DNA from: Macrocystis pyrifera | Lineage: Eukaryota > Sar > Phaeophyceae > Laminariales > Laminariaceae | Assembly (NCBI GenBank): GCA_031763025.1 | Contig: JASSKH010000009.1 | Location: 6,868,825 to 6,932,824, forward strand | Direction: 5' to 3' | Length of the DNA: 64,000 nt | In this document: piece by piece, positions 2,713-62,965 of the stretch | How positions within the stretch are numbered: the stretch's first letter is position 1 | Layout of the letters: each line of letters opens with the position of its first letter | Program-made: the position numbers and the translations under genes | The notes under the pieces: generated by a model | The model's input: only the letters and a program-made list of their open reading frames with translations | Told to the model about the DNA's origin: nothing | Databases searched by the model: none

Positions 2713-3775
2713 GTTGATAGTTCAGAGCCCATTTGCTACCGGTACGTTTTCTATGCTCCGTGGTGTATGCGTGTGTGGACCGCTTCGCCCCAGAAATTTG
2801 AACCTTTGGTAAAGAAAACAAAAAAAAAATGTCGCGGTCGACCTGCGAAAAAAAAAAAAAAAAAAAAACGAAAACAAAACACCCCCCCATTCCGTGAACT
2901 ATTGTTCGGTTATTCACCGCATGGATGGCGTTGTAAACCACTGATGTGAACACAGTTGGGATGAATTGAATTTTCGTCATTTGGTTGCAGACTTGACGGA
3001 TGAGGAAAGGCATAGGGAGTAAAGGTCATCCCCTTCAGACTTTTGTTGGAACTTCTATCGGCATTCCCACACTGTGCTCGTCGGCTTTCGTCGATTTCTT
3101 TTGCTAGCTCGCGCTCTCGCGACTTTTCGGCCGTATAATAATATACTTCTATGCGAGAAAAATACCCCACACACGAGTACATAATATATATATATATATA
3201 TAAATGTGGGTGCATTCGGTGATAATTGAAACCATCGACTCTATTAATAGTACGCGCGAGGACCACACCTGCAACAAATCGTCACGGGAGTACTTCTTAC
3301 GCTGCGCCAGCCAAATACGATTATATTTTTGTTTGGGGGGGGGGGGGGGGTTGAGGTACGACGCTAAAATACTCTCTCCCGAGTGGGGCCTAGAGACACC
3401 CCCCCTGGATGAGGTTGCAACCGGTGCAAGGATTGTTACTTCTTTCTTTCTTTTTTTCCTGCTTGAGGTGTACGATGTGTTGTTTTCAGCTTAGGATGTG
3501 TATCTGCCTAGCTTTTGGTATTATTTGATTCGACTCGTACTTTTTTTTCCTGCTGTGGAGGCGTTCTTCCACTCCCGTTTTCTGGAGGCCTTTCCTGTGA
3601 CCACGGGCTTAATATTTCGGACAAGAGCTGATGTGACAACACCTGCAACAACAACAACAACAACAACACACAGCCCCCCACAACCTCGTCAGTTTTTGAG
3701 GAGAGCCCCTCCCCCGCGACTCCGCCGTTCGCCGACACCGCGCGTCGCAACGCACCAAACCTAACGAATACCTCC

Positions 3776-4125: not shown

Positions 4126-4158
<33 letters not shown>

Positions 4159-4588
4159 TGGACCTGCCAGAAAGAAGAAAGAGGTACACCAGTAGCCGGG
4201 AGGAGGAGGAAGCAGACGCACAGATGTGCCCGTGTGGCAAAGCAATAGAGAGTAGAACTCACATAGTAGGAGACTGTGAAATATACAAGGAGGAACGGGA
4301 TGTGTTAGAAGAGGAGATGAGGAAAATAGACGAATGTGACATGGAGGAGTTTGATACTCTGAACAGCAGCGAGAAAACGATCGCTATCCTAGGAGATAGA
4401 TGGTGGCCACAGGAGGCCAAGCAGGAAGAGGATAAGATTAGCAAAAAGTTTCTATGTAATTTATGGAAACAACGTAATGAGCGCCCAATTGTTGGAGGTG
4501 TCTCTATTAGGAGTAGGAACGGTGCTCCGTTTCGAAAGGGATGCGTGGTCAATGGTCAAATGACTAAGGCAAACAACAAATGAGTACG
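4159..4588 (+). mobile_element. LINE 3' end, 5'-truncated copy
   Basis: A truncated non-LTR retrotransposon whose open frame runs from DLPERRKRYT to about 4583. It includes the zinc-knuckle-like CPCGKAIESRTHIVGDCEIY and the motif LGDRWWPQEA. It is nearly identical to 10277-10706 but has no frame break at the YTSSREEEE segment. It begins immediately after a poly-C run and ends GAGTACG followed by poly-C, typical of target-primed insertion with 5' truncation. Confidence 0.9.
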
Positions 4589-4628
4589 CCCCCCCCCCCC
4601 CCCCCCCCCCCCTAATAATATGTTACCG

Positions 4629-6071: not shown

Positions 6072-6322
6072 CATCAACTCATTGAAGCTGTCATCCATAT
6101 GCAAGTCCGCCTCACAAGCGGTTCTTAGTAGGATGCAACTCACCCTTCATGCGACTCGCCGGACACCTCACGGCGCTTCGCGCTTGGTGCAAGCAACGTC
6201 TGCCTGGTCGGTAAAAACCCGACATGCTCCGTCCCGGCATTGTAGGAATGCGAGGGTCTATGGTCATACGACTACGGCAATGCGTGAGATCGAGTACATC
6301 TCTCCTATCGAGTACACCCCCC
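6072..6322 (+). mobile_element. SINE-like element, 5'-truncated
   Basis: Starts at CATCAACTCATTGAAGCTG right behind a 15-base C run and ends GAGTAC plus poly-C. The last 18 bp, CTCCTATCGAGTAC type, are duplicated at the tail as in the copies at 8030 and 60513. Confidence 0.9.
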
Positions 6323-6663
6323 CCCTCGTCCCCCCTCCTTGCAAGCCCAAGCGTGTGCTCAATCAAGGTTCGGGGCGCACCGAGGCGTCGAGCCTTGGGT
6401 CATACCACTAATATAGTAGGTAGCTGTTGCTTTTCCTGGCGGGTAGAGGTGTAAGTGCAGTATCACAGACAGTGCCCTATTTTTTTTCTGAGCTGCTCAT
6501 TCGCATGAGGAGCTACGGTACCGAAGAGCCAGAGAAACTCGCTCCGGAGCCACTGCTTCTTTAGGGACGGTGCCTTACTTTCCCTGTGCTCGTCGCATGA
6601 GGAGCTCGGTGTACCTCACCTCAAAGCGGTGTGGTTCGCAGGAGCAAAACCGACCGAGACATC

Positions 6664-6774
6664 TATTACGGGGGGTCCATAGTTAATAGGACGTACGGCA
6701 TACATAAAAACCTATATATTTACCTATTTTTACCGATAATATTTGGTCCTATGTACTAGGGACCCCCGTGATAG
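6664..6774. mobile_element. Family-A MITE, copy 4
   Basis: About 110 bp, inverted ends TATTACGGGGGGTCC and GGGACCCCCGTGATA, AT-rich core. Confidence 0.85.
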
Positions 6775-6779
6775 GCGCT

Positions 6780-6870
6780 GTTGACCCTTAGGGAGGAAAA
6801 CTACTTGGGATTAGAGTGCTTGTCCCCCCCAAACGGGACTGACCGTAGTGTTTGCCCCGAAAGGGTCAAC
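6780..6870. mobile_element. Family-B MITE, degenerate
   Basis: Ends TTGACCCTTAGG and GAAAGGGTCAA with internal AAACTACTTGGGATTAGAG and CCCCCAAACGGGACTG, matching the family at 63752 and 17657. Confidence 0.6.
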
Positions 6871-7632: not shown

Positions 7633-8027
7633 GGGGGATATGAATCTCCTCCGTTAAGGAATTTTGTCGGTTGCTCACTTACGTACGGGTGCATTCGTGC
7701 GTCGTAGCGGCGCTTGCTACCGCCGTGATGGTATCACCTGCTGAGCCATAGGGGTAAATGATCGATCGATTACCCAGCCCAGGGTGATTAATCCTTATAA
7801 GACTCTCTCCCCTCTCTGAACGACGGGACCTTTCGGGGCGTCGAAACCGTATACGGCCGTACGCTGACCTTAACCCCCTTCGTTTTAAATACCTGGGGAA
7901 CCAGGAAGATGTGTGTGTGTGTGTTTTACGGATGCACTCGCAAGCGTTTCTATGAAAGAAACGTCACTACGTATGTATATACCAGGTACACCGTACGTAC
8001 AAGGTGGGTGAAAGTATATAGGATGGC

Positions 8028-8456
8028 GGGGGGGGGGGGGGGGTGTACTCGATAAGGGAGATGCACTCGATCTCATGCATGGCCGTTGTCGTATGACCAT
8101 AGACCCTCGCATCCCTACAATGCCGGGACGGAGCATGTCGGGTTTTCACCGACCAGGCAGACATTGCTTGCACCAAGCGCGAAGCGCCGTGAGGTGTCCG
8201 GCGAGTCGCATGAAGGGTGAGCTGCATCCTGCTAAGAACCGCTTGTGAGGCGGACTTGCATATGGATGACAGCTTCAATGAGTTAGTTTAATTTCCGGTG
8301 TGGCCACTTCCAGAGACAGCAATGGGAGTACTATGTAACTGCCTCTTGGGTGACTTACCTTGAACACTACGTGATACGATCAATTCCCTTGTGCAGAGTA
8401 AAGGTTCTTTACTTCGCACAAATGATCTAACTAGACGACCAGCTGTGGGTGACCGC

Positions 8457-8491
<35 letters not shown>

Positions 8492-8568
8492 GGTACCCTG
8501 GATGTCTAGCTCACGTAGTGAGCGGCATGTTTTACAGTGTCGTTGCCAACCGACGCCGACCCAACGGG
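8028..8568 (-). mobile_element. SINE-like element, near full length
   Basis: Reading the minus strand, the copy begins at the head CCAACGACACTG-like segment near 8566, passes a T run (A run on plus, 8458-8490), the module TTAGATCATTTGTGCG, the ACTCATTGAAGCTGTCATCC module and the TCATACGACAACGGCCATGC tail, and ends GAGTAC plus poly-C (poly-G at 8029-8043). Length is about 540 bp with the homopolymers. Confidence 0.9.
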
Positions 8569-8880: not shown

Positions 8881-8891
8881 CCGAACCATAC

Positions 8892-9000
8892 TATTACGGG
8901 GGTACACAGTTAATAGGACCTATGGTACACATAAAAACCTATACATTTACCTTTTTTTACTAACAAAATTTGGTCCCGTTAACTATGGACCCCCGTAATA
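8892..9000. mobile_element. Family-A MITE, copy 6
   Basis: Complete element, left end CTATTACGGGGGTACACAG, right end GGACCCCCGTAATA. Confidence 0.85.
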
Positions 9001-9108
9001 CCACGGGGGGCCGTAGCTATCAGGACCCACCCTTTATACTAAAACCTATATATTCCGGTATTTTTGCTGAACATATTTGGTCCTGATTACTCTGTCCCTA
9101 CGTGAATA
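9001..9108. mobile_element. Family-A MITE, copy 7, diverged
   Basis: Abuts the previous copy. CACGGGGGGCCGTAGC left end, core AAAACCTATATATTCCGG. The right end is strongly decayed. Confidence 0.6.
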
Positions 9109-9649: not shown

Positions 9650-10706
9650 AATGGAGGATGCGATCCTAACAGACCCGAACCTTGACACTAGGATTAAGAT
9701 ATGTATCTTGATGAATGTGATAGCACCAAAGCTAGAATGTGCAGGAGAAGTATGGGAAGGGAACGCGAAACTCGTAAAACAGTTGGAAACAGCACAAATG
9801 ACAGCAGCTAAAAAAAAATCCTAGGATGCTCAAGTACGACTAGTAATACAGTATTAAGAGCAGAACTGGGAATGCGCCCACTCAAGACAAATAGAGACAT
9901 GAGAAAGTTGAACTGGCTATATAAAGTAAGGAACATGCCAAAAAAGAGGTTGCCAGCCATAGTTGATAGAGCTGTATGGGAGAAAGTAACAAAAGGGCGA
10001 GCTGGAATAAAGTGGGATGGCGTAGTTGAGAAAGTATGGAAGGATCTGGGAGGAAACCAAGTAGAAATGATGTCCACCGGGAAGTTTGGGAGGTACAGGC
10101 AGAAGTAGAAGAAAGGGTAGAAAGAAGGGAAAGGCTAGCGCTAAGAAACAAGGTGGAATCGGAAAAACTCTTAGAGAGATACGGGGGATTGAGGGAAGGA
10201 ATAGGAATGAAAACGTATTTGCATGGCCCAATGGACTTCGCGAAAACGCTGAAACTGCGCTTTCGTGTAGGAGACCTGGACCTGCCAGAAAGAAGAAAGA
10301 GGTACACCCAGTAGCCGGGAAGAGGAGGAAGTAGACGCACAGATGTGCCCGTGTGGCAAAGCAATAGAAAGTAGAACTCACATAGTAGGAGAATGTGAAA
10401 TATACAAGGAGGAACGGGATGTGTTAGAAGAGGAGATGAGGAAAATAGACGAATGTGACATGGAGGAGTTTGATACACTGAATAGCAGCGAGAAAACGAT
10501 CGCTATCCTAGGAGATAGATGGTGGCCACAGGAGGCCAAACAGGAAGGGGATAAGATTAGCAAAAAGTTTCTATGTAATTTATGGAAACAACGTAATGAG
10601 CGCTCAATTGTTGGAGGTGTCTCTATTAGGAGTAGGAACGGTGCTCCGTCTCGGAAGGGATGCGTGGTCAATGGTCAAATGACTAAGGCAAGCAAAAAAT
10701 GAGTAC
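9650..10706 (+). mobile_element. LINE, 3' half (end of reverse transcriptase ORF)
   Basis: Degraded C-terminal part of a non-LTR retrotransposon ORF2. The reading frame gives AILTDPNLDTRIKICILMNV, PKLECAGEVWEGN and LRAELGMRPLKTNRDMRKLN, then a Lys/Glu-rich helical stretch, then CPCGKAIESRTHIVGECEIY and LGDRWWPQEA. The PKLECAGEVW segment matches the thumb/connection motif (P..EYG.E.W) that follows LINE reverse transcriptase domains. The frame is interrupted about three times: in the A run near 9812, near 10095 and near 10308. The element ends AAAAAATGAGTAC followed by about 20 Cs. The catalytic YxDD part is absent, so this copy is 5'-truncated and dead. Clade not determined. Confidence 0.88.
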
Positions 10707-10737
10707 CCCCCCCCCCCCCCCCCCCCTCCCGCAGCAT

Positions 10738-11166
10738 TCACAGCTGGTGGTCAAGTTAGATCATTCGTGCGAGGTGAAGAACCTTTACTCCGCACAAGGG
10801 GAATGATCGTATCACGTAGTGTTTATGGCAAGGCACCCCGAGAGGCAGTTACATAGTACTCCCACATTGATGTCTCTGGAAGTGGGTACACCGGAAATCA
10901 AATTAACTCATTAAAGCTGTCATCTATATCCAAGATAATCCGCCTCTAAAGGCGGTTCTTAGTAGGATGCAGCTCACCCTTCATGCGACCCGCCGGACAC
11001 CTCACGGCGCTTCGCGCTTGGTGCGAGCAAATGTCTGCCTGGTCGGTGAAAACCCGACATGCTCCGTCCCGGCATCGTAGGGATGCGAGGGTCTGCTATG
11101 GTCATACGACAACGGCCATGCATGAGATCGAGTATACATCTCTCCTACCGAGGACTCCCCCCCCCC
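10738..11166 (+). mobile_element. SINE-like element, behind the LINE tail
   Basis: Begins CAGCTGGTGGTCAAGTTAGA a few bases after the LINE's poly-C at 10706-10727, lacks the head and T run, and ends with the GGCCATGCATGAGATCGAG module and poly-C. The final GAGTAC is altered to GAGGACT. Confidence 0.88.
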
Positions 11167-11191
11167 CCCTACCGCAGCATGCTTTAACTTG

Positions 11192-20800: not shown

Positions 20801-23721
20801 TGTAGAATATTTGTAGATGATTCATAGATGATGTATCTGTCTTGAGGTGCGAGATAGTTTGTTGTGTTTTTTTTTAAAGCTGTGAGATTAAAATTTTCCT
20901 CAAATGCTACCTTGGCAGTCTAGTACGCGTGCGATCATGTACCATAACAAGTTACAACTAAAAAACAGGGTGTGCGTGTGTTCAACAATGGGAGGTACAT
21001 ACACAACAGCATACATACCGGTGTTGTATTAATAGTACAAAACGTTTGCAAGCAATGCTGCAAAAAAAAACACACACACACACAAACGAATTTACGTAAC
21101 ACAATTTCATAAAACACCAAAAAAACTTACTTTTTGAAAAAAAACGAGTAAAAACATTTTAACTGCTGAGTGAAAACAACAAAACAAACTGCACGAATAA
21201 ATAAAGAATGAGCGGCTGAATAAATACGTAAGAAAAAAAACACAATGTGAGAAAAAAAAGGCGTGGTAAACAAACAAAACAAACGAAACGAAAAGTCAAC
21301 CAAAAACGCGACAAAACAAACGGGGTGCATAAACGAACAGCAAAAACAAAAACCACCATCAACAATAATACAGCACAAAAATGCCCAAAACAAAAAAACC
21401 CCACAGTACGAGCGAGTATCATGATTAGTATGGCGAGGTGCCGACGCGAAAGGCTTCTCCATCGGCAAGGCTAACAGCTATTACAGGGAGCCACAGTAAA
21501 TAGGACCTACGGTACAAACAAAAACCTATATATTTACCTATTTTTACAAACAAGATTTGGTCCCATTTACTATGGTCCCCCGAAATAATAGCGCGATGCC
21601 GTGACCAACACGCCACAAGGCGCGCCGGACAGAAATACGGACACCACTACCGCCGCGAGACCAGCCTCATCGGCGCACCGACCACTCGCCGGGTTCGTCC
21701 TCAATCCCACCCCGCTCAGGGGAATCGGTGACCTATGCGCGTATATGAAACCTCTGCCCTTTCCACACGAAGCATCGTAAGCGGTCTCGCGGCAAGTGCG
21801 CTACGATGAATCCCCCGTACACCCCCCCCCCCCCCGACATCCGCCTCTCTGTCCTGACCGCCCGTCTCGCTGCCGAAAACAAGAGCACACGAAAGGCCGC
21901 GGGGATTGCGGACCGACCAGAAAAAAAAAAAAGAGAGAGAGACTAGACGAAACGAAAGAAGTGAAACGAAAACGACACAAGACGCAACTCACTTAACTGA
22001 ACTGGTTTCAACCAAGCCCGAGCAAAACTCAACGCAACGCAGTTCGACCTACCGTAATACAACCCGACCCCAAACCAACGCATGCCATCCCAACCCAATC
22101 CAATTGAAATTAACTCGGGTCGTCGACCCCACCGAGTCTCAACCCAACCCGACTGAAGTCAACACGGTCGTCGACCCTACCGAAGCCCAATTCAACCCAA
22201 CCCAACCCATCGCAACTCAACCAAACCAACCCAGCCCAGCCTAACCCGACCCACCCAACCCAACCCAACCCAACCCAACCCAACCTAAAAACGGCGACGC
22301 AGCTCAACCCAACCAAACAAAACAAAGAACTACAAGTACTGAAACCGCGCCGACGAAACTCCCTCTCTCTCGTTTGGCGTGGTTATATACGACTACGCCC
22401 ATGCATGATAATGAGTACCCCCCCACCACCACCACCGTCACCCCTCATGCGACTCGCCGGACACCTCACGGCGCTTCGCGCTTGGTGCAAGCAATGTCTG
22501 CCTGGTCGGTGACAACTCGACATGCTCCGTCCCGGCAGTGCACATAGGGATGCGAGGGTCTACGGTCATACGACTGCGGCCATGCATGAGATCGAGTACA
22601 TCTCTCTCCTATCTAGTACACCCCCCTCCCCCTCCCCCCCCCCCCCCCTCCCCCGTTTGTCGTGCGCTACGTAAGTACTAATACAGTAGTGCCGATTGCC
22701 CCTCTATAGCGCCGGTATGTATGCGCCAGGCAACAACAATACCGGCACTATATATATATTAACAGCGGCAACCAACCGGCACTATTTACTCCGCACACTG
22801 CCACACCGGCACTAATTACCCCGCGCACTGCCACACTTTCAGTATATGCTCCCTTCTGTGCCAAGTGACTCCGCACGCCCTTCTAGCGACCGGCCGGCAC
22901 TATTACCACCCAACCGGCACTATGCAGGGACCACTATACATTACTCTGCCGACAAAACGACCACAACTCTACAGCGGGAGATAGACGGTGGCCACAGGGG
23001 GGGCGAAAACAGGAAGGGGATAAGATAAGACGAGCAAACCGTTTATTACACAACAACTTGTTTTTTTGGGGTGGAGGGAGGAACAAAACGTAAAATGAGA
23101 TAAAACATTGGACGCGTCTCTTATTAGAAACGGGAACGTAGTCAATGGTCAAATGCCCGAAGGCAAGAAAAAGTGAATACGCCCCCTCACCTTCCTTCAC
23201 CCCCCCCCCCCCCCCCCCCCCCCCCCCCGCCCCCGCCCCCGACCTGTCACCCTCTCACCTCGAATCGCTTCCCGTCTCGCGGGTTCCCGATCTCCGTGAC
23301 CACCATCCTCGGTTCTAGGGCGAGAAGGCGGTCGCAGTTCACGAACGCCTCCGAGATGGCGGGACAGAGCTGAGAGAGGTCCCTGCGTCACAAAAACACA
23401 CAGGAAAGGAAAAAAAAGAAAAAAAAAAAAAAACACGAACAAAAAAACACCAAAACTGTATGTAAAGTATACTTGGTATTTATATTTCGTGTATAAGAAG
23501 TATGTAAGACCTACCAGGTATACTTCGTACATAAAGTAGACAAGTGTAGAAACAAACGAAACGAAGCATAACAAGGTAAGTATAGAGTCAAGACCAACAA
23601 AAGCAAACACAATCCAACAAAAACTAAACAGCACCAGACAAAGCAATCGTGGAAGAAAACAACAAAACAAAGCGTTTTTTCAAGTCGCGCTTACAGATCA
23701 TTCGATTCGCGCGGGCATGAT

Positions 23722-23765
<44 letters not shown>

Positions 23766-24108
23766 ACCCCCCCCCCCCCCCCCCCCCCCCCCCCCAGTGC
23801 TCCGTCTCGAAAGGGATGCGTGGTCAATGGTCAAATGACTAAGGCGAGCAACAAATGAGTACACCCCCCCTCCCCCTCCCCCTCCCCCCTCCCGGACACC
23901 ATAAAACACCTACAGGTCTCAATACAATAATCACCCGACCTCCAAAAGGCAATTCATCAGCCCCCTCGCTTCTTCACAAAACAACCCCCCCACGAACTCG
24001 GTTAAAGTACCGTACGCATACACATGCATGCATGTCTTTTTTCAAGCCGCGCTTACCGATCGTCCGACCCCCGGTCGGAGGTGCCCTAAAAGCACTCCAT
24101 CAGCGGCC

Positions 24109-27812: not shown

Positions 27813-30800
27813 CACGCCCCGCCCCACTTCCCGCCTTCCAGCTCACCTACAAATGGCGTCCTCCATCTCAATCCTCCAGCCGGGAGCATCCGAGTAGCCG
27901 CAGGGCAGGCCGTCCCCGACGCTCTCCGCCGCTCCCCTCATCACACCCGTCCTTGCAGTCCCCCCCCCTTTTGTCGTGGTCCTCCCGCCCCCGCTGCGCA
28001 GCGCCGCCGGGGTCGCGGGGCAAACGCTGGCGTCGCCCGCCGCGTAGAGATGACTCTCCACCTTTTTGTAGTTGAATTTTTTCGGCCAGGCAGAGCGAGC
28101 ACGTGAGAGAGAAGCAAGCGGAGCAAGCGGGGAGATCGCGAAGCGAGGGAGTCAGGCGAGAAAGCGAGGAAGGCAGGAAGGGAGGGAGAAAAGCAAGAAA
28201 AGCGAAACAAAGCGAGAAGGCCGGCGGGCGGGCGGGCGGGCGGGCGGGCGGTCAGGCAGGCAGGCGAGTGAGCGAGCGAGCGAGCACGCGAGCGGCAAGC
28301 GAGTGAGGCAAGCAACAGCGAGCAGCAAAAGCTCTTCCATGCCATATGCCATAGTATCACGTATCACTCGATATCATAGGATGCCATGACATCTCATGTC
28401 ATGCCATCCCATACCGTACTGCTGTATGCCATGCTATACGATGTCATCCTATTCCATATCTGCCGTACCATGCTATGTATATATACTATACTATATTATC
28501 CCATACCGCACTATGTCCATACCATACGCCATATCGTGTGTGCCCATATATTACCATATGGCATGCCATCCCATATCACCCCATGTCATGCCATCCTATC
28601 CCATCTCATTCCATCCCATTCCATGCTACCCATCCCATCCCATCCCATCGGGTCCCATTCTATCCCATCCCATTAACGATTAATCCCATCCCATCCCATT
28701 GGGTCCCATCTCATGCTGCGCCTCACCTGTTTGTTCCTGGCGCGAGACCGCACGCTCCACGCCAGAGGCGTTCTTCCCGCGAGGTCAACGGGGGCGTTAA
28801 TCCCCACGATCGTGTCCGCCGATTCAGCCTCCATACGCTCCTGCTCAAACATCGGAAACCACCACCATCACCAACAGCACCATCACCCAGACCAAGTTTA
28901 ATCACCAACACCAACACCAACAACACCAACAACACCGCCACCAACGCCAACAACAACCCCAACACCAACACCAACACCAGCGAACGAACGCCAACATTAA
29001 CGCCAACACCAACACCAACACCAACACCAACACCAGCGAACGGCCAACATTAACGCCAACACCAACACCAACACCAACACGAATGACAATACCAACGCCA
29101 TCACCAACGCCAACACCGACACCAACACCAACACCAACCCCGACACCAACACCAACACCACCACCAACACCAACACCAATGCCAACACCAACACCAACAC
29201 CAGCGCCACCACCACCACCAAGTGATAGAAAGAGAAGCATGGCCGCCGCGGCCGCCGTTACCAGAAAGAAAGGCGTCAGAGCACACAGATGGTGGGAGGG
29301 GAACGTTGAAATGAAACACGGTGCTGTCAGTAAAGGCCGGTAGAGTTGGAAGGGAAGCAAGCGTGGGGGGTTACGGCGTTTCTCACCAAGGGACGGGGGG
29401 GGGGGGCACTTGTTGCTTGCCTTAGTCATCTGACCATTAACCACGTATCTCTTTCGGGGGGGGGGGGGGGGTAATCGAGAGAGAGAGAAAATGTACAAAG
29501 AGAGATAAATATATACCCCAAGGCAAGGATGAGCGCAAAGGGGCAAATGAAAGGCGGGCGAAGGGGCGGGGGAGAGTACTCAGTATCAAGCATGGCCGTA
29601 GTCGTATAACCATATACCCTCGCATCCCTACAATGCCGGGACGGAGAACGTCGGGCTTTCACCGACCAGGCAGACATTGCTTGCACCAAGCGCGAAGCGC
29701 CGTGAGGTGTTGGGCGAGTCGCATCAAGGGTGAGTTGCATCCTACTACGAGCCGCTTTGGAGGCGGATGTTCTTGAAAATGGATTACAGCGTCAATGAAT
29801 TGATTCAATTTCTGGTGTGGCCTCTTCAGAGACAGCAGTGGGTTCACTATGTAACAGCCTCGTGGGTGCCTTACCATGTACACACTATTACGGGGGTCCA
29901 TAGTTAATAGGACCTATGGTATGCATAAAAACCTATATATTAACCTATTTTTACTGACAATATTTGGTCTTATTTACTACGGTCCCCCGTAACACGTGAT
30001 ACGGTCATCCCCCTTGTGCGGAATTAATTTTCTCCCCGCACGAAAATGATCTAAGTCAACCGCCAGCCGTGGTGACCGCCATTAAAACAAAAAAAGGTAC
30101 CCTGGCCGTCTAGCTCACGTAGTGAGAGGCGTGATTTACGGCAACCGACGCCAACTCAACCTATAGATTATACGGGGGGGGGTAATCGCGAAATATATAG
30201 AGGGGGAGACAGAGCGAGAAAAACGACCGGCCAGACAGAAAGACGGGTGAAGACCGGGTGAGACCAACGACCTTCCAGCGCGAGACGCCACCTGGCCCCC
30301 CCCCCCCTCACAGCCCGAAGGACGACCTTCCCGCGCGCAGGCACCATCGTGCACATCACGTGTGATAATATAACACACTACCGTCTATCACACGTGTGAT
30401 AATATAACACAACTACCGTATATCACCCGTGTGATAAGATAACACACTGCCGTACCACACCGGGTGATAAGATAGCACACTACCGTACATCACACGGGTG
30501 ATAATATAACACAACTACCGTACATCACCGTTGTGATAAGATAACACACTGCCGTACCACACCGGGTGATAACATAACACACCACCGTATCACACGGGCG
30601 ATCAGATAACACACTTACCGTACCGCACCGTGTGACAAGATAACACACTACCGTATCACACCGGGTGATAATATAACACCCCCCCTCCCTCGGACGAATC
30701 TCGAGGCTGGCTTTATTTCGATAATGGGGAAAGGCGCGAACGCTTATGATAGCGGTGTGTCTATAAGGAAAAAAAAAAACTATCTGTGGTCGAAATATTT

Positions 30801-54186: not shown

Positions 54187-54391
54187 TGGTCAATCCCATG
54201 CCACTGTCCCTAAATATAGGGAACGATTATATTTAATTTTAGTATAGAAATGGTTCCTGTATTCCGGGACAGTGGGAATGTACCAAGCGGTTTCGCAGGC
54301 GCTAATTGTGGCGACGGCCGGCACTGATGAGGGAGCACCACTGTACAGGGATCCTGCGCAACGCCTCATAAACAACAGGTTTAAGATCTAC

Positions 54392-54499
54392 TATTACGGA
54401 GGACCATGGTAAACAGGACCTACGGTACACACGAAAACCTATATATTCAACTATTTTTACTTACAATATTTGGTCCTTGTTACTATAGCCCCCCGTAAT
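54392..54499. mobile_element. Family-A MITE, copy 14
   Basis: TATTACGGAGGACCATGG to AGCCCCCCGTAATG. Its sequence flank GTTGTACATGACCTATTGTG recurs beside copy 15, so the two may be a segmental duplication. Confidence 0.88.
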
Positions 54500-54738
54500 G
54501 TTGTACATGACCTATTGTGATAGATCACACCTCGAACAAAGTAACACTTAACGTTTTATGTTAGTGTTAGGCGTCAGCGAAAAAAAAAAACGTAACATTA
54601 CGTTACCACAAGTCTGGGTTTTGTGATAACACAGTGTCAGTGTGTTATGATACTGGCGGGCGATCGCGTAACGTTATGTTAAGAGGGTTACCTTAATCTC
54701 GTACTGACCGCAGTGTATGTGTTACGGCGTTAGGGTAC

Positions 54739-59418: not shown

Positions 59419-60512
59419 GTAATCGCGATAGGGGTGGTACCTGAAACTGAAAAAAAAAAACTTCAATAATAACCACATCTCGAAGTACTGGAACCACACG
59501 CGGGCCACCACCATTCCGCTTTTTTCGCCAGGCTTTTTATCAACATACCAGGTACGCCATTTCTCGTCCAGTAATAAATGCGAAGATCGGTGGGGTACGT
59601 GCGTACACACCTGGCATCCTTGTGAATATCTCAACGACCCTTAAGTATCCGAACAACTATCCGAACAACTAGGCACCGGCAAGTTTTTTTTTTTACATGT
59701 CTCGCATTTCTACGCGACTCCTGGCGCTAAGCGTGCAGGGGCAAAAGGCCCTTCGTTCCTCGTCGATGATAAGGAGCGGGGCGGGGGGGAGTGGAAGGCG
59801 TCGTCGTGCCGACGGCAAACAAAACATCTCGCCACGGAAAAAAAAAAAAAAACGGAACCGCGAGGGGGGGGGGGGGGGGGGGGGGTGGTCCAAACGAAGA
59901 CAGAAAAGTACACGCAGTTTACCTGCCGCTAGAAACCCGCGACAGCCGTGAAAAAAAAGAAAAATAACTGTCGTCAACTCGTGTCCTTTGTGGTTGAAAG
60001 CACGGTAGTTTAGAGAACCGAACATACAGTGGGGGTGTTTGCGATAATCCAATTTGGTTGTTGGGGTATAAAAATACACGGAACCGACGAATCTGAGGAG
60101 CTGATTGGCAAGAACAGCCGAACCCGGAGGCCCACAGAGCTCAACCCAACGCACACCCAACCTCAACAAAAAATAAACTAGGGTGAAATGCGTCAAGCTT
60201 GGTCAACATTTTCCCGCAGCCTTTGCAGGATTGAGCCAATTTTTTCGCGGATTGGGATTGCCGGCCGTGGCGTACAGAAAACAGACTACACGAAACCCAA
60301 CCAAACTGGTTCCAACCGAAAAAAAAAAAAAAAATCGCAAGCAACCCTAAGAGACGAATCTCAGTCGCAGGACGAAGAATCGGCTCCAGGCAACTCGAAC
60401 AGGGGTCCCCGTTTCTTAGGCGCGGCGCGAAATCAAAACATAAAAATGGCAGTAGCTCGCGTCCGTTCGTAATAAACCGACGCCGTTACAACTCGACCTC
60501 TCCCCCCCGGAC

Positions 60513-61031
60513 TGGCGTCGGTTGGCAACGGCACTGTAAAACATGCCGCTCACTACGTGAGCTAGACATCCAGGGTACCGTTTTTTTTTTTTTTTTTTTT
60601 TTTTTTGGCGGTCGCCCACAGCTGGTCGTCTAGTTGGATCATTTGTGCGAGGTAAAGAACCTTTACTTTGCACAGGGGAATTGATCGTATCACGTAGTGT
60701 TCAAGGTAAGACACCCAAGAGGCAGTTACATAGTACTCCCATTGCTGTCTCTGGAAGTGGCTACACCGGAAATCAAACTAACTCATTGAAGCTGTCATCC
60801 ATATGCAAGTCCGCCTCACAAGCGGTTCTTAGTAGGATGCAGCTCACCCTTCATGCAACTCGCCGGACACCTCACGGCGCTTCGCACTTGGTGCAAGCAA
60901 TGTCTGCCTGGTCGGTGAAAACCCGACATGCTCCGTCCCGGCATTGTAGGGATGCGAGGGTCAATGGTCATACGACTACGGCCATGCATGAGATCGAGTA
61001 CATCTCTCCTATCGAGTACATCCCCCCCCCC
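60513..61031 (+). mobile_element. SINE-like element, reference full-length copy
   Basis: About 519 bp: head GACTGGCGTCGGTTGGCAAC, CTCACTACGTGAGCTAGACA, a 24-base T run (60583-60606), GTCGTCTAGTTGGATCATTT, GGCAGTTACATAGTACTCCC, ACTCATTGAAGCTGTCATCC, AGCGGTTCTTAGTAGGATGC, CCGTCCCGGCATTGTAGG, CATACGACTACGGCCATGCA and a doubled GAGTAC tail with poly-C. No open frame of note, so non-autonomous. Whether it derives from a tRNA, 5S or 7SL gene could not be shown. Confidence 0.92.
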
Positions 61032-61620
61032 GGACCTTTCGACAAGGACGAGGACGACAACGGCAACTACTACTATTGTTCCTTCCCCCACATCATCACC
61101 TTCGGCCCCTTCTTTTTCCTTCTCCCTCCCGAGTCGGAACTCAAACCCGGGGTCACACATCACGCTCTTGTCCCCCCCTTTTCCCATCACAGTGCGTGTC
61201 TTTATTGTTCATCGGGATCGGGAGAAGGGCGCAGCACTTTTCTTCCCGAATCGACTCGCGTCGAATCAAGCATATAAACATTATACGTTTCGACAGTTTT
61301 TTTTTTTTTTTTTTTTTCGTTCTTCTTTTACGTACAGGCAAAAAAACTATTTTTCAGCTTTTTTTTTTTAGTTTTACGTACGTACATACGGGTACGGAGA
61401 CACCGGGGACGGATCAGTAGAATCCTCGGTAGGGCAAGAACATATTCCATCCCCGGGGTTTCCACTCCCTTATATGGAGGCGTTTTCACACCGGGGATAG
61501 CGGAGAACTAACAGTCACGGCACATCATCTCGTACGGGGCACCGGTAACTGCACGAGGTACAACAGTAAACGTATGATGCGTATCCCTGCTCTTAACACT
61601 ATGAACGGCAAGCAGCTTAC

Positions 61621-62864: not shown

Positions 62865-62929
62865 CATACTCATTTGTTGCTTGCCTTAGTCATTTGACCA
62901 TTGAACACGCATCCCTTCGAGACGGAGCA

Positions 62930-62930
<1 letters not shown>
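62865..62930 (-). mobile_element. LINE 3' tail fragment
   Basis: Plus strand ATACTCATTTGTTGCTTGCC to CATCCCTTCGAGACGGAGC, between G-rich runs. It lies about 100 bp upstream of the CRT exon acceptor. Confidence 0.85.

Positions 62931-62965
<35 letters not shown>
62931..62965. repeat. Poly-G tract
   Basis: About 35 Gs at the 5' boundary of the LINE fragment. Confidence 0.9.

Follow-up and report, generated by a model that had tools for sequence, protein, structure and literature searches.

Insertions of a LINE and of a SINE-like element in the genome of the giant kelp Macrocystis pyrifera show a target preference for runs of cytosine (C-runs). In the sample of the genome that was read, they lay mostly in this one sequence class, with a C-run adjoining the 5' side in 43 of 50 LINE copies and in 19 of 20 copies of the SINE that were chosen beforehand. 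Judged from the junction sequences, it is likely that C-runs that already existed are the preferred insertion sites of the LINE and of its non-autonomous partner, with insertion by target-primed reverse transcription in which a G-run would act as base-paired primer on a C-ended RNA.

The 3' tail of the LINE and its SINE-like partner

The LINE and the SINE-like element, which is short (about 540 nt) and non-autonomous, have in common a 3' tail of about 65–73 nt terminating in GAGTAC and a C-run. The original prediction, made on a stretch of 64,000 nucleotides of contig JASSKH010000009.1 (the window), had described the tails as about 70% alike over 40 bp. The likeness was confirmed, but the stretch proved longer, with 65 nt of the LINE and 73 nt of the SINE in the local alignment. 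The score of this alignment was 67, whereas 2000 mononucleotide shuffles scored 18.5 on average and 41 at most. Because the 3' tail is common to both, the SINE-like element is probably moved by the reverse transcriptase of the LINE, as had been proposed; tail sharing between LINE and SINE is an already known phenomenon. The copy numbers given for the window also held: about 17 SINE-like copies were claimed and 17 SINE chains were found, of which 13 extend into the 3' part, while the claim of about nine LINE ends is matched by seven LINE chains found by BLAST with L036:3779-8723 as reference (six reaching the 3' end) and by older ends near 3750 (read from the translation), 3932 and 23115. The features of the window are as follows.

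4127–4158, plus strand: run of 32 Cs directly 5' of a 5'-truncated LINE
4157–4587, plus strand: 5'-truncated LINE copy flanked by C-runs on both sides (3' run at 4589–4612)
8044–8565, minus strand: nearly full SINE-like element; on the sense strand, C18-G-C10 (8594–8566) lies directly upstream and C16 (8043–8028) downstream
9656–10706, plus strand: 5'-truncated LINE copy with the C-terminal part of the reverse transcriptase protein, zinc-knuckle-like CPCG...HIVGEC, frame broken (BLAST to L036:3779-8723; translation)
10672–10685, plus strand: predicted hairpin UGGUC-AAAU-GACUA in the LINE tail, the same fold being predicted in the SINE tail (ViennaRNA)
10700–10702, plus strand: LINE stop codon TGA within the common tail, then GTA and Cs, essentially without 3' UTR (translation)
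10706–10726, plus strand: run of 21 Cs at the LINE 3' end
10727–10737, plus strand: 5' copy of the SINE target-site duplication, TCCCGCAGCAT, directly 3' of the C-run of the LINE
10739–11155, plus strand: SINE-like copy placed at the C-run and 3' flank of the LINE
11157–11169, plus strand: run of 13 Cs at the SINE 3' end
11170–11180, plus strand: 3' copy of the SINE duplication, TACCGCAGCAT, with one mismatch to TCCCGCAGCAT
23797–23862, plus strand: LINE tail fragment 3' of a run of 29 Cs (23767–23795) and one A
29407–29456, minus strand: LINE tail fragment with C16 on the 5' side (29456–29471) and C12 on the 3' side (29395–29406)
60502–60512, plus strand: 5' duplication CCCCCCCGGAC of the SINE at 60514
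60514–61020, plus strand: nearly full SINE-like element with C7GGAC on the 5' side and C10GGAC on the 3' side (run 61022–61031, GGAC 61032–61035)
62867–62929, minus strand: LINE tail fragment immediately 3' of a run of 36 Cs (62930–62965)
2135–2249, 6660–6774, 8887–9001, 21474–21588, 29881–29995, 54387–54501 and others: MITE-like copies

The ending in GAGTAC plus a C-run was borne out genome-wide. In the assembly of 537,376,219 bases in 223 sequences, the exact LINE end AAGGCAAGCAACAAATGAGTAC occurred 3856 times and was followed by one base and CCCCC in 2974 cases and not in 882, and a reversed-pattern control gave 0 for both counts. The giant kelp genome is described as comprising 537 MB in 35 scaffolds and 188 contigs, with an N50 of 13,669,674 (PMC10498591). 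Since the assembly is PacBio-based, homopolymer lengths are approximate and unreliable. All 30 LINE loci examined, including the window copy, ended in GTAC or GTAA and a C-run, which in one of them was merely C5. By a strict local count, in which a run of at least six Cs had to start no more than 12 nt from the end of a LINE or 45 nt from the end of a SINE, 47 of 50 LINE copies and 39 of 47 SINE copies qualified; by a loose criterion (a C-run anywhere in about 110 nt), all 50 LINE copies had one. One LINE tail and one SINE tail were predicted by ViennaRNA to fold into the same small hairpin, UGGUC-N4-GACUA. This was also predicted, weakly, on an alignment of 39 distinct tails (14 LINE and 25 SINE; four odd rows left out), with an energy of only -4.8 kcal/mol.

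A full-length LINE was found, L034 and L036 having 4.95 kb in common from CCGAGCATGAAGG through to the C-run. An APE-like endonuclease was detected in L036 (Exo_endo_phos, 3.5e-10) and a reverse transcriptase in copy L031 (RVT_1, 3.5e-31), and the best solved relatives were the R2 protein (6e-19) and the LINE-1 ORF2 protein (5e-12). By these two domains, the kelp LINE is an APE-type non-LTR retrotransposon. Its copies vary in 5' truncation and are fixed at the 3' end. The stop codon sits in the tail (AAA TGA GTA C), with the C-run 3–5 nt further on in most copies; thus, the coding region reaches to within 3–5 bases of the C-run. Elements of the RTE clade have a very short 3' UTR ending in a simple repeat, a trait that the kelp LINE fits.

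In the SINE-like element, no tRNA was found by ARAGORN, and a search of the window and the SINE head against Rfam gave weak matches below the gathering score, none usable over the SINE head. A Pol III head was not recognised by these searches. An internal T-run would be expected to terminate Pol III transcription. The element is therefore called SINE-like, for want of a tRNA or Rfam match to its head and for its internal T-run. In the 20 copies chosen beforehand, which were read at both junctions, a C-run is followed in many cases by an AT-rich leader, e.g., ATATATTATATATGG, and then by GTTGGGTTGGCGTCGG; in copies of the examined loci, GTTGGGTTGGCGTCGG is followed by the internal T-run, the common tail and a C-run. 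Some copies (window 6289–6317 and about 60993–61021) have the tail motif twice in tandem (ATCGAGTACATCTCTCCTATCGAGTACA) ahead of the C-run, which looks like a double copying of the end.

C-runs at the 5' junctions and target-site duplications

C-runs also adjoin the 5' side of the copies, beside truncation points that vary, a feature absent from the original prediction. LINE copies that reach the 3' end and have a readable 5' flank numbered 50 in 330 kb, made up of the window, 12 grid stretches and the LINE loci; one minus-strand hit (L025), whose flank fell short of 30 bp, was excluded beforehand. In 43 of the 50, the 30 bp next to the 5' junction contained a run of at least six Cs, and the same test gave 1 for A6, 0 for G6 and 2 for T6. 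In comparison, 2.4% of 48,000 random positions held such a C-run in 30 bp. In 36 of 50 copies, the end of the run was no more than 5 nt away from the junction, as compared to a background of 1.1%. When only copies from the window and the 12 grid stretches were considered, 8 of 10 had a 5' C-run. The seven LINE copies with no run of at least six Cs within 30 bp upstream include the window copy at 9656 and the full-length L034.

Among the SINE copies in the examined loci, 28 of 47 had a 5' C-run; one of those counted (window, minus strand, 6647) has a flank of Ns. The 20 copies chosen beforehand came from 40 full matches outside the window, ten per strand, and were picked before their flanks were read. 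They do not correspond exactly to the highest-ranking matches, since a few per strand, including both members of the C131 tandem pair, were skipped with their flanks unseen. A run of at least six Cs within 60 nt upstream was present in 19 of the 20, as compared to 3.9% of random positions. Further upstream of LINE and SINE copies, C-runs were found in 13 of 95 flanks at -100 bp, 5 of 94 at -200, 6 of 92 at -300 and 3 of 92 at -400, the value at -100 bp being explained by the clustering of copies.

Readable target-site duplications consist of the end of the C-run and a few bases, with the C-run outside the unique part. Such duplications were read at L019 (GCTCCGTCT), at L035 (CCCCGGGTG) and in the window at 60502 (C7GGAC) and at 10727/11170 (TCCCGCAGCAT/TACCGCAGCAT). 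At L003, C26AGTT before the LINE recurs as C24AGTT past a SINE nested in the C-run of the LINE. In other duplications, the bracketed letters also fit the element: L013 GCCC(GCT), L009 GGC(A) and L030 A(GCC). Where at least 2 nt separate C-run and junction, 10 of 19 LINE copies showed a match at the 3' side by eye, two of these on 2 nt only and L003 only beyond the nested SINE. The substring score of the LINE duplications (2.09) exceeded all 300 shuffles (maximum 1.79), and the exact-prefix score (1.26) was above the mean (0.55) and below the maximum (1.44) of 5000 shuffles. The SINE scores did not beat every shuffle (prefix 0.88 against a maximum of 1.62; substring 2.19 against 2.35). The duplications are thus weakly resolved, at many junctions not at all. 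Duplications placing the ends elsewhere than at GAGTAC plus Cs had been named as a possible objection to the original prediction, and in part this objection applies: the duplications begin inside the C-run, so that in many copies one cannot tell clearly where the tail stops and the target begins.

At L031 (about 6790–6860), a C-run and ATCATCCGATC lie upstream, a long C-run and ATC directly before the LINE, and a C-run and ATCATCCGATC after it. This pattern suggests two insertion rounds or a C-only duplication at one site.

Origin of the C-runs and a candidate mechanism

Unfilled sites allow filled and empty targets to be compared. The repeat that hosts the L014 insertion has other copies without it. 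Of these unfilled paralogs, the two nearest, L014:797-1041 and L041:4796-5015, read CTCTCCCCCCCTCTGAAC (C7), and the others have C13 (L043:1997-2239), C5 (L041:5046-5283) and C4 (window 7748–7914); in the filled site, C9 lies upstream of the insertion and C25 downstream. The unfilled paralog of the L012 site has runs of C4 and C5 only, as compared to C13 upstream and C78 downstream in filled L012. It follows from these comparisons that a C-run can be present before insertion, and further Cs seem to be acquired. L035 has C9-T-C4 on the target side as compared to an unbroken C15 on the 3' side; barring a later mutation to T, 11 or more Cs would seem to have been added. L032 has C18 upstream and C21-T-C14 downstream. 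The earlier suggestion that poly-C at the tail points to an unusual end of the template or to the addition of Cs is therefore retained for the apparent gain of Cs at some sites (L035, L014), but for the most part the pattern looks like one of target choice, because a C-run also lies upstream of the 5' junction and, where the duplication can be read, outside its unique part.

If the Cs were a genuine tail, i.e., if the RNA ended in poly-C or the reverse transcriptase added it and sites were otherwise unselected, the Cs that seem gained at L035, L032, L012 and the L014 site would be accounted for. Such a tail predicts neither the 5' C-runs (43/50 LINE, 19/20 SINE) nor runs outside the unique duplication, and in several SINEs the 5' run is longer than the 3' run (48/11, 31/6 and 23/12). 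This explanation is considered unlikely, and in its pure form, with all C-runs being RNA tail, it was ruled out by the 5' C-runs outside readable duplications.

G-runs are able to form G-quadruplexes. The runs could thus be fragile sites, through G-quadruplexes or replication stalling, with the LINE inserting at breaks rather than nicking G-runs itself; the frequent 5' truncation and the copies without visible duplication would fit. However, the orientation is strict: upstream on the sense strand, C-runs were counted 43 times and G-runs 0 times, which breaks alone would not yield, even though annealing of the C tail at a break could produce it. Flanks of a MITE-like repeat served as a control: this family of about 115 bp, with ends like ATTACGGGGGTCC...GGACCCCCGTAAT, is unrelated to the two elements, and a C-run was present in 6 of 84 of its flanks on either strand, i.e., without comparable enrichment. 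Insertion at fragile sites is regarded as improbable to a similar degree as a genuine tail.

In 24 of the 43 LINE junctions with a C-run, the run directly abuts the LINE (distance of at most 1), and there target and filler are indistinguishable. The 5' Cs might thus stem from the reverse transcriptase extending the cDNA 3' end by non-templated Gs, or from end-joining filler, with only the 3' Cs being tail. Against this, the C-run lies outside a readable unique duplication at L019, L035, L003 and window 60502, which rules out filler as the general cause. Moreover, in 16 of 43 LINE and 10 of 28 SINE cases (26 of 71 together), an earlier copy supplied the 5' C-run as its tail, so that the run is target. 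This possibility is rated somewhat below the two preceding ones.

An artefact of common C-runs or of homopolymer assembly errors has very little credibility: 178 runs of at least eight Cs were counted on both strands of the window and 12 grid loci (184 kb), with lengths up to 79, but the random background of 1–4% as compared to 86% of LINE and 95% of pre-chosen SINE junctions also led to the rejection of chance as cause of the 5' C-runs, and the tail before the C-run is conserved in thousands of copies. Since 147 of the 178 runs follow no recognised LINE or SINE end, decayed copies or another source must account for these.

Insertion into pre-existing C-runs could proceed in five steps. First, the reverse transcriptase would recognise the 3' end of about 65–73 nt common to LINE and SINE RNA, perhaps via the UGGUC-N4-GACUA hairpin. 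Second, the endonuclease would nick the G strand in or at the edge of the C/G-run, as suggested by duplications that begin in C-runs. Third, the exposed ...GGGG-3'OH would pair with the Cs at the RNA 3' end and prime cDNA synthesis, the transcript having possibly obtained these Cs by reading into its own flanking C-run. Fourth, extra Cs, the gain of which is seen at a few sites, might come from the copied tail or from template slippage. Fifth, the second strand would be cut from 0 to about 12 nt past the run, yielding a duplication of C_k and a short unique part, the form seen where duplications are readable.

Each insertion carries a C-run, so that any copy can serve as the next landing pad. 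Another copy starts within 70 bp after, in the same orientation, in 26 of 97 copies, and chains of 5'-truncated LINEs and SINEs can arise by insertion into earlier C-runs. The wider proposal of a self-propagating homopolymer system, in which the endonuclease nicks G-runs, the C-run is at once tail, primer-binding site and landing pad, and LINE and SINE spread poly-C, is evenly balanced in our judgement.

Comparison with known retrotransposons

The R1 and Tx1 groups include microsatellite-targeting LINEs, i.e., APE LINEs aimed at simple sequence; the target in kelp differs from theirs in being homopolymeric C. Among the APE clades, only Tx1 and R1 are described as containing site-specific LINEs (PMC13295347). 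RTE-clade pairs such as Bov-B and Sauria SINE or plant RTEs and their SINEs resemble the kelp pair in a common 3' end, an end in a simple repeat, an APE endonuclease and a homopolymer near the target (PMC13295347). As described there, targets of the clade are marked by TA and by a short T stretch located upstream of the duplication by about 10 nt, and targets like their own 3' repeats are rarely seen beside Bov-B copies, whereas in kelp tail and target are one homopolymer. The green-algal RTEX elements listed in Table 3 of PMC3747384 end in (CA)n, (CAA)n, (CCAT)n, (ACAATG)n or (CTTGTAA)n, unlike the (C)n of the kelp LINE, this being one variable trait and not a test of clade.

In Ectocarpus, RTEX-N1_Ec32 is described as an abundant non-autonomous element of about 600 bp that has its 3' end in common with a LINE (RTEX-1/-2_Ec32; PMC12477816). 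Like the SINE-like element, it comes from a brown alga, ends in a LINE-shared 3' part and has a 5' part of unknown origin; it is probably the closest published relative, likened by description and not by sequence. The account of RTEX-N1_Ec32 in PMC12477816 mentions neither poly-C nor C-run targets. Zepp and ZeppL of green algae likewise nest into their own copies and form arrays of 5'-truncated 3' ends, but are described as members of the L1 clade in centromeric clusters, whereas the kelp system is based on C-runs and has a SINE-like partner (PMC8226300). Lepidopteran RTE elements that spread microsatellites also have a C-terminal coding end adjoining the repeat, and slippage was proposed for them; there, the repeat is reported to lie between the duplications and to be absent before insertion, whereas the kelp C-run seems earlier than the insertion (PMC2887409).

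In the open-access literature searched, no poly-C target matching the tail of a retrotransposon was found. To our knowledge, the kelp LINE would, if this reading is true, be the first described to have one poly-C homopolymer as both its tail and its target. With this homopolymer as tail and target of LINE and SINE and with thousands of near-identical ends, base-paired priming is directly testable, and the system could help to reveal the function of retrotransposon tails, a matter without general consensus according to PMC13295347. In addition, some of the abundant kelp poly-C tracts may have their source in this system, which also provides a mechanism of self-nesting; if it holds, LINE and SINE jointly spread poly-C tracts across the kelp genome.

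The best named protein relatives of the kelp LINE were unnamed-product Ectocarpus proteins, the first eight with 54–71% identity (among the best 120 of 233 matches). From this similarity and the abundance of RTE-X elements in Ectocarpus, we infer a placement of the kelp LINE in RTE or RTE-X. A search for relatives in viral contigs and genome contigs found none. Stretches like the C-terminal VVNGQMTK, in which the kelp LINE terminates, recur among distant relatives. Read in frame, the SINE tail at window 6256–6279 gives VYGHTTTA, near the C-terminal VYGHMTTAP or VYGHMTTTP of P0034 and P0049, two distant LINE proteins from JGI data. Thus, the SINE tail may derive from another LINE lineage than the kelp LINE; when 11 distant homologs were compared with the examined loci by tblastn, no LINE clearly nearer to the SINE tail was seen among the matches listed. 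The Ectocarpus protein P0082 continues ...KACKTEEYVPPTIFP where its relatives stop at ACKT, which at the protein level is compatible with an Ectocarpus relative likewise terminating in GTACCCCC.
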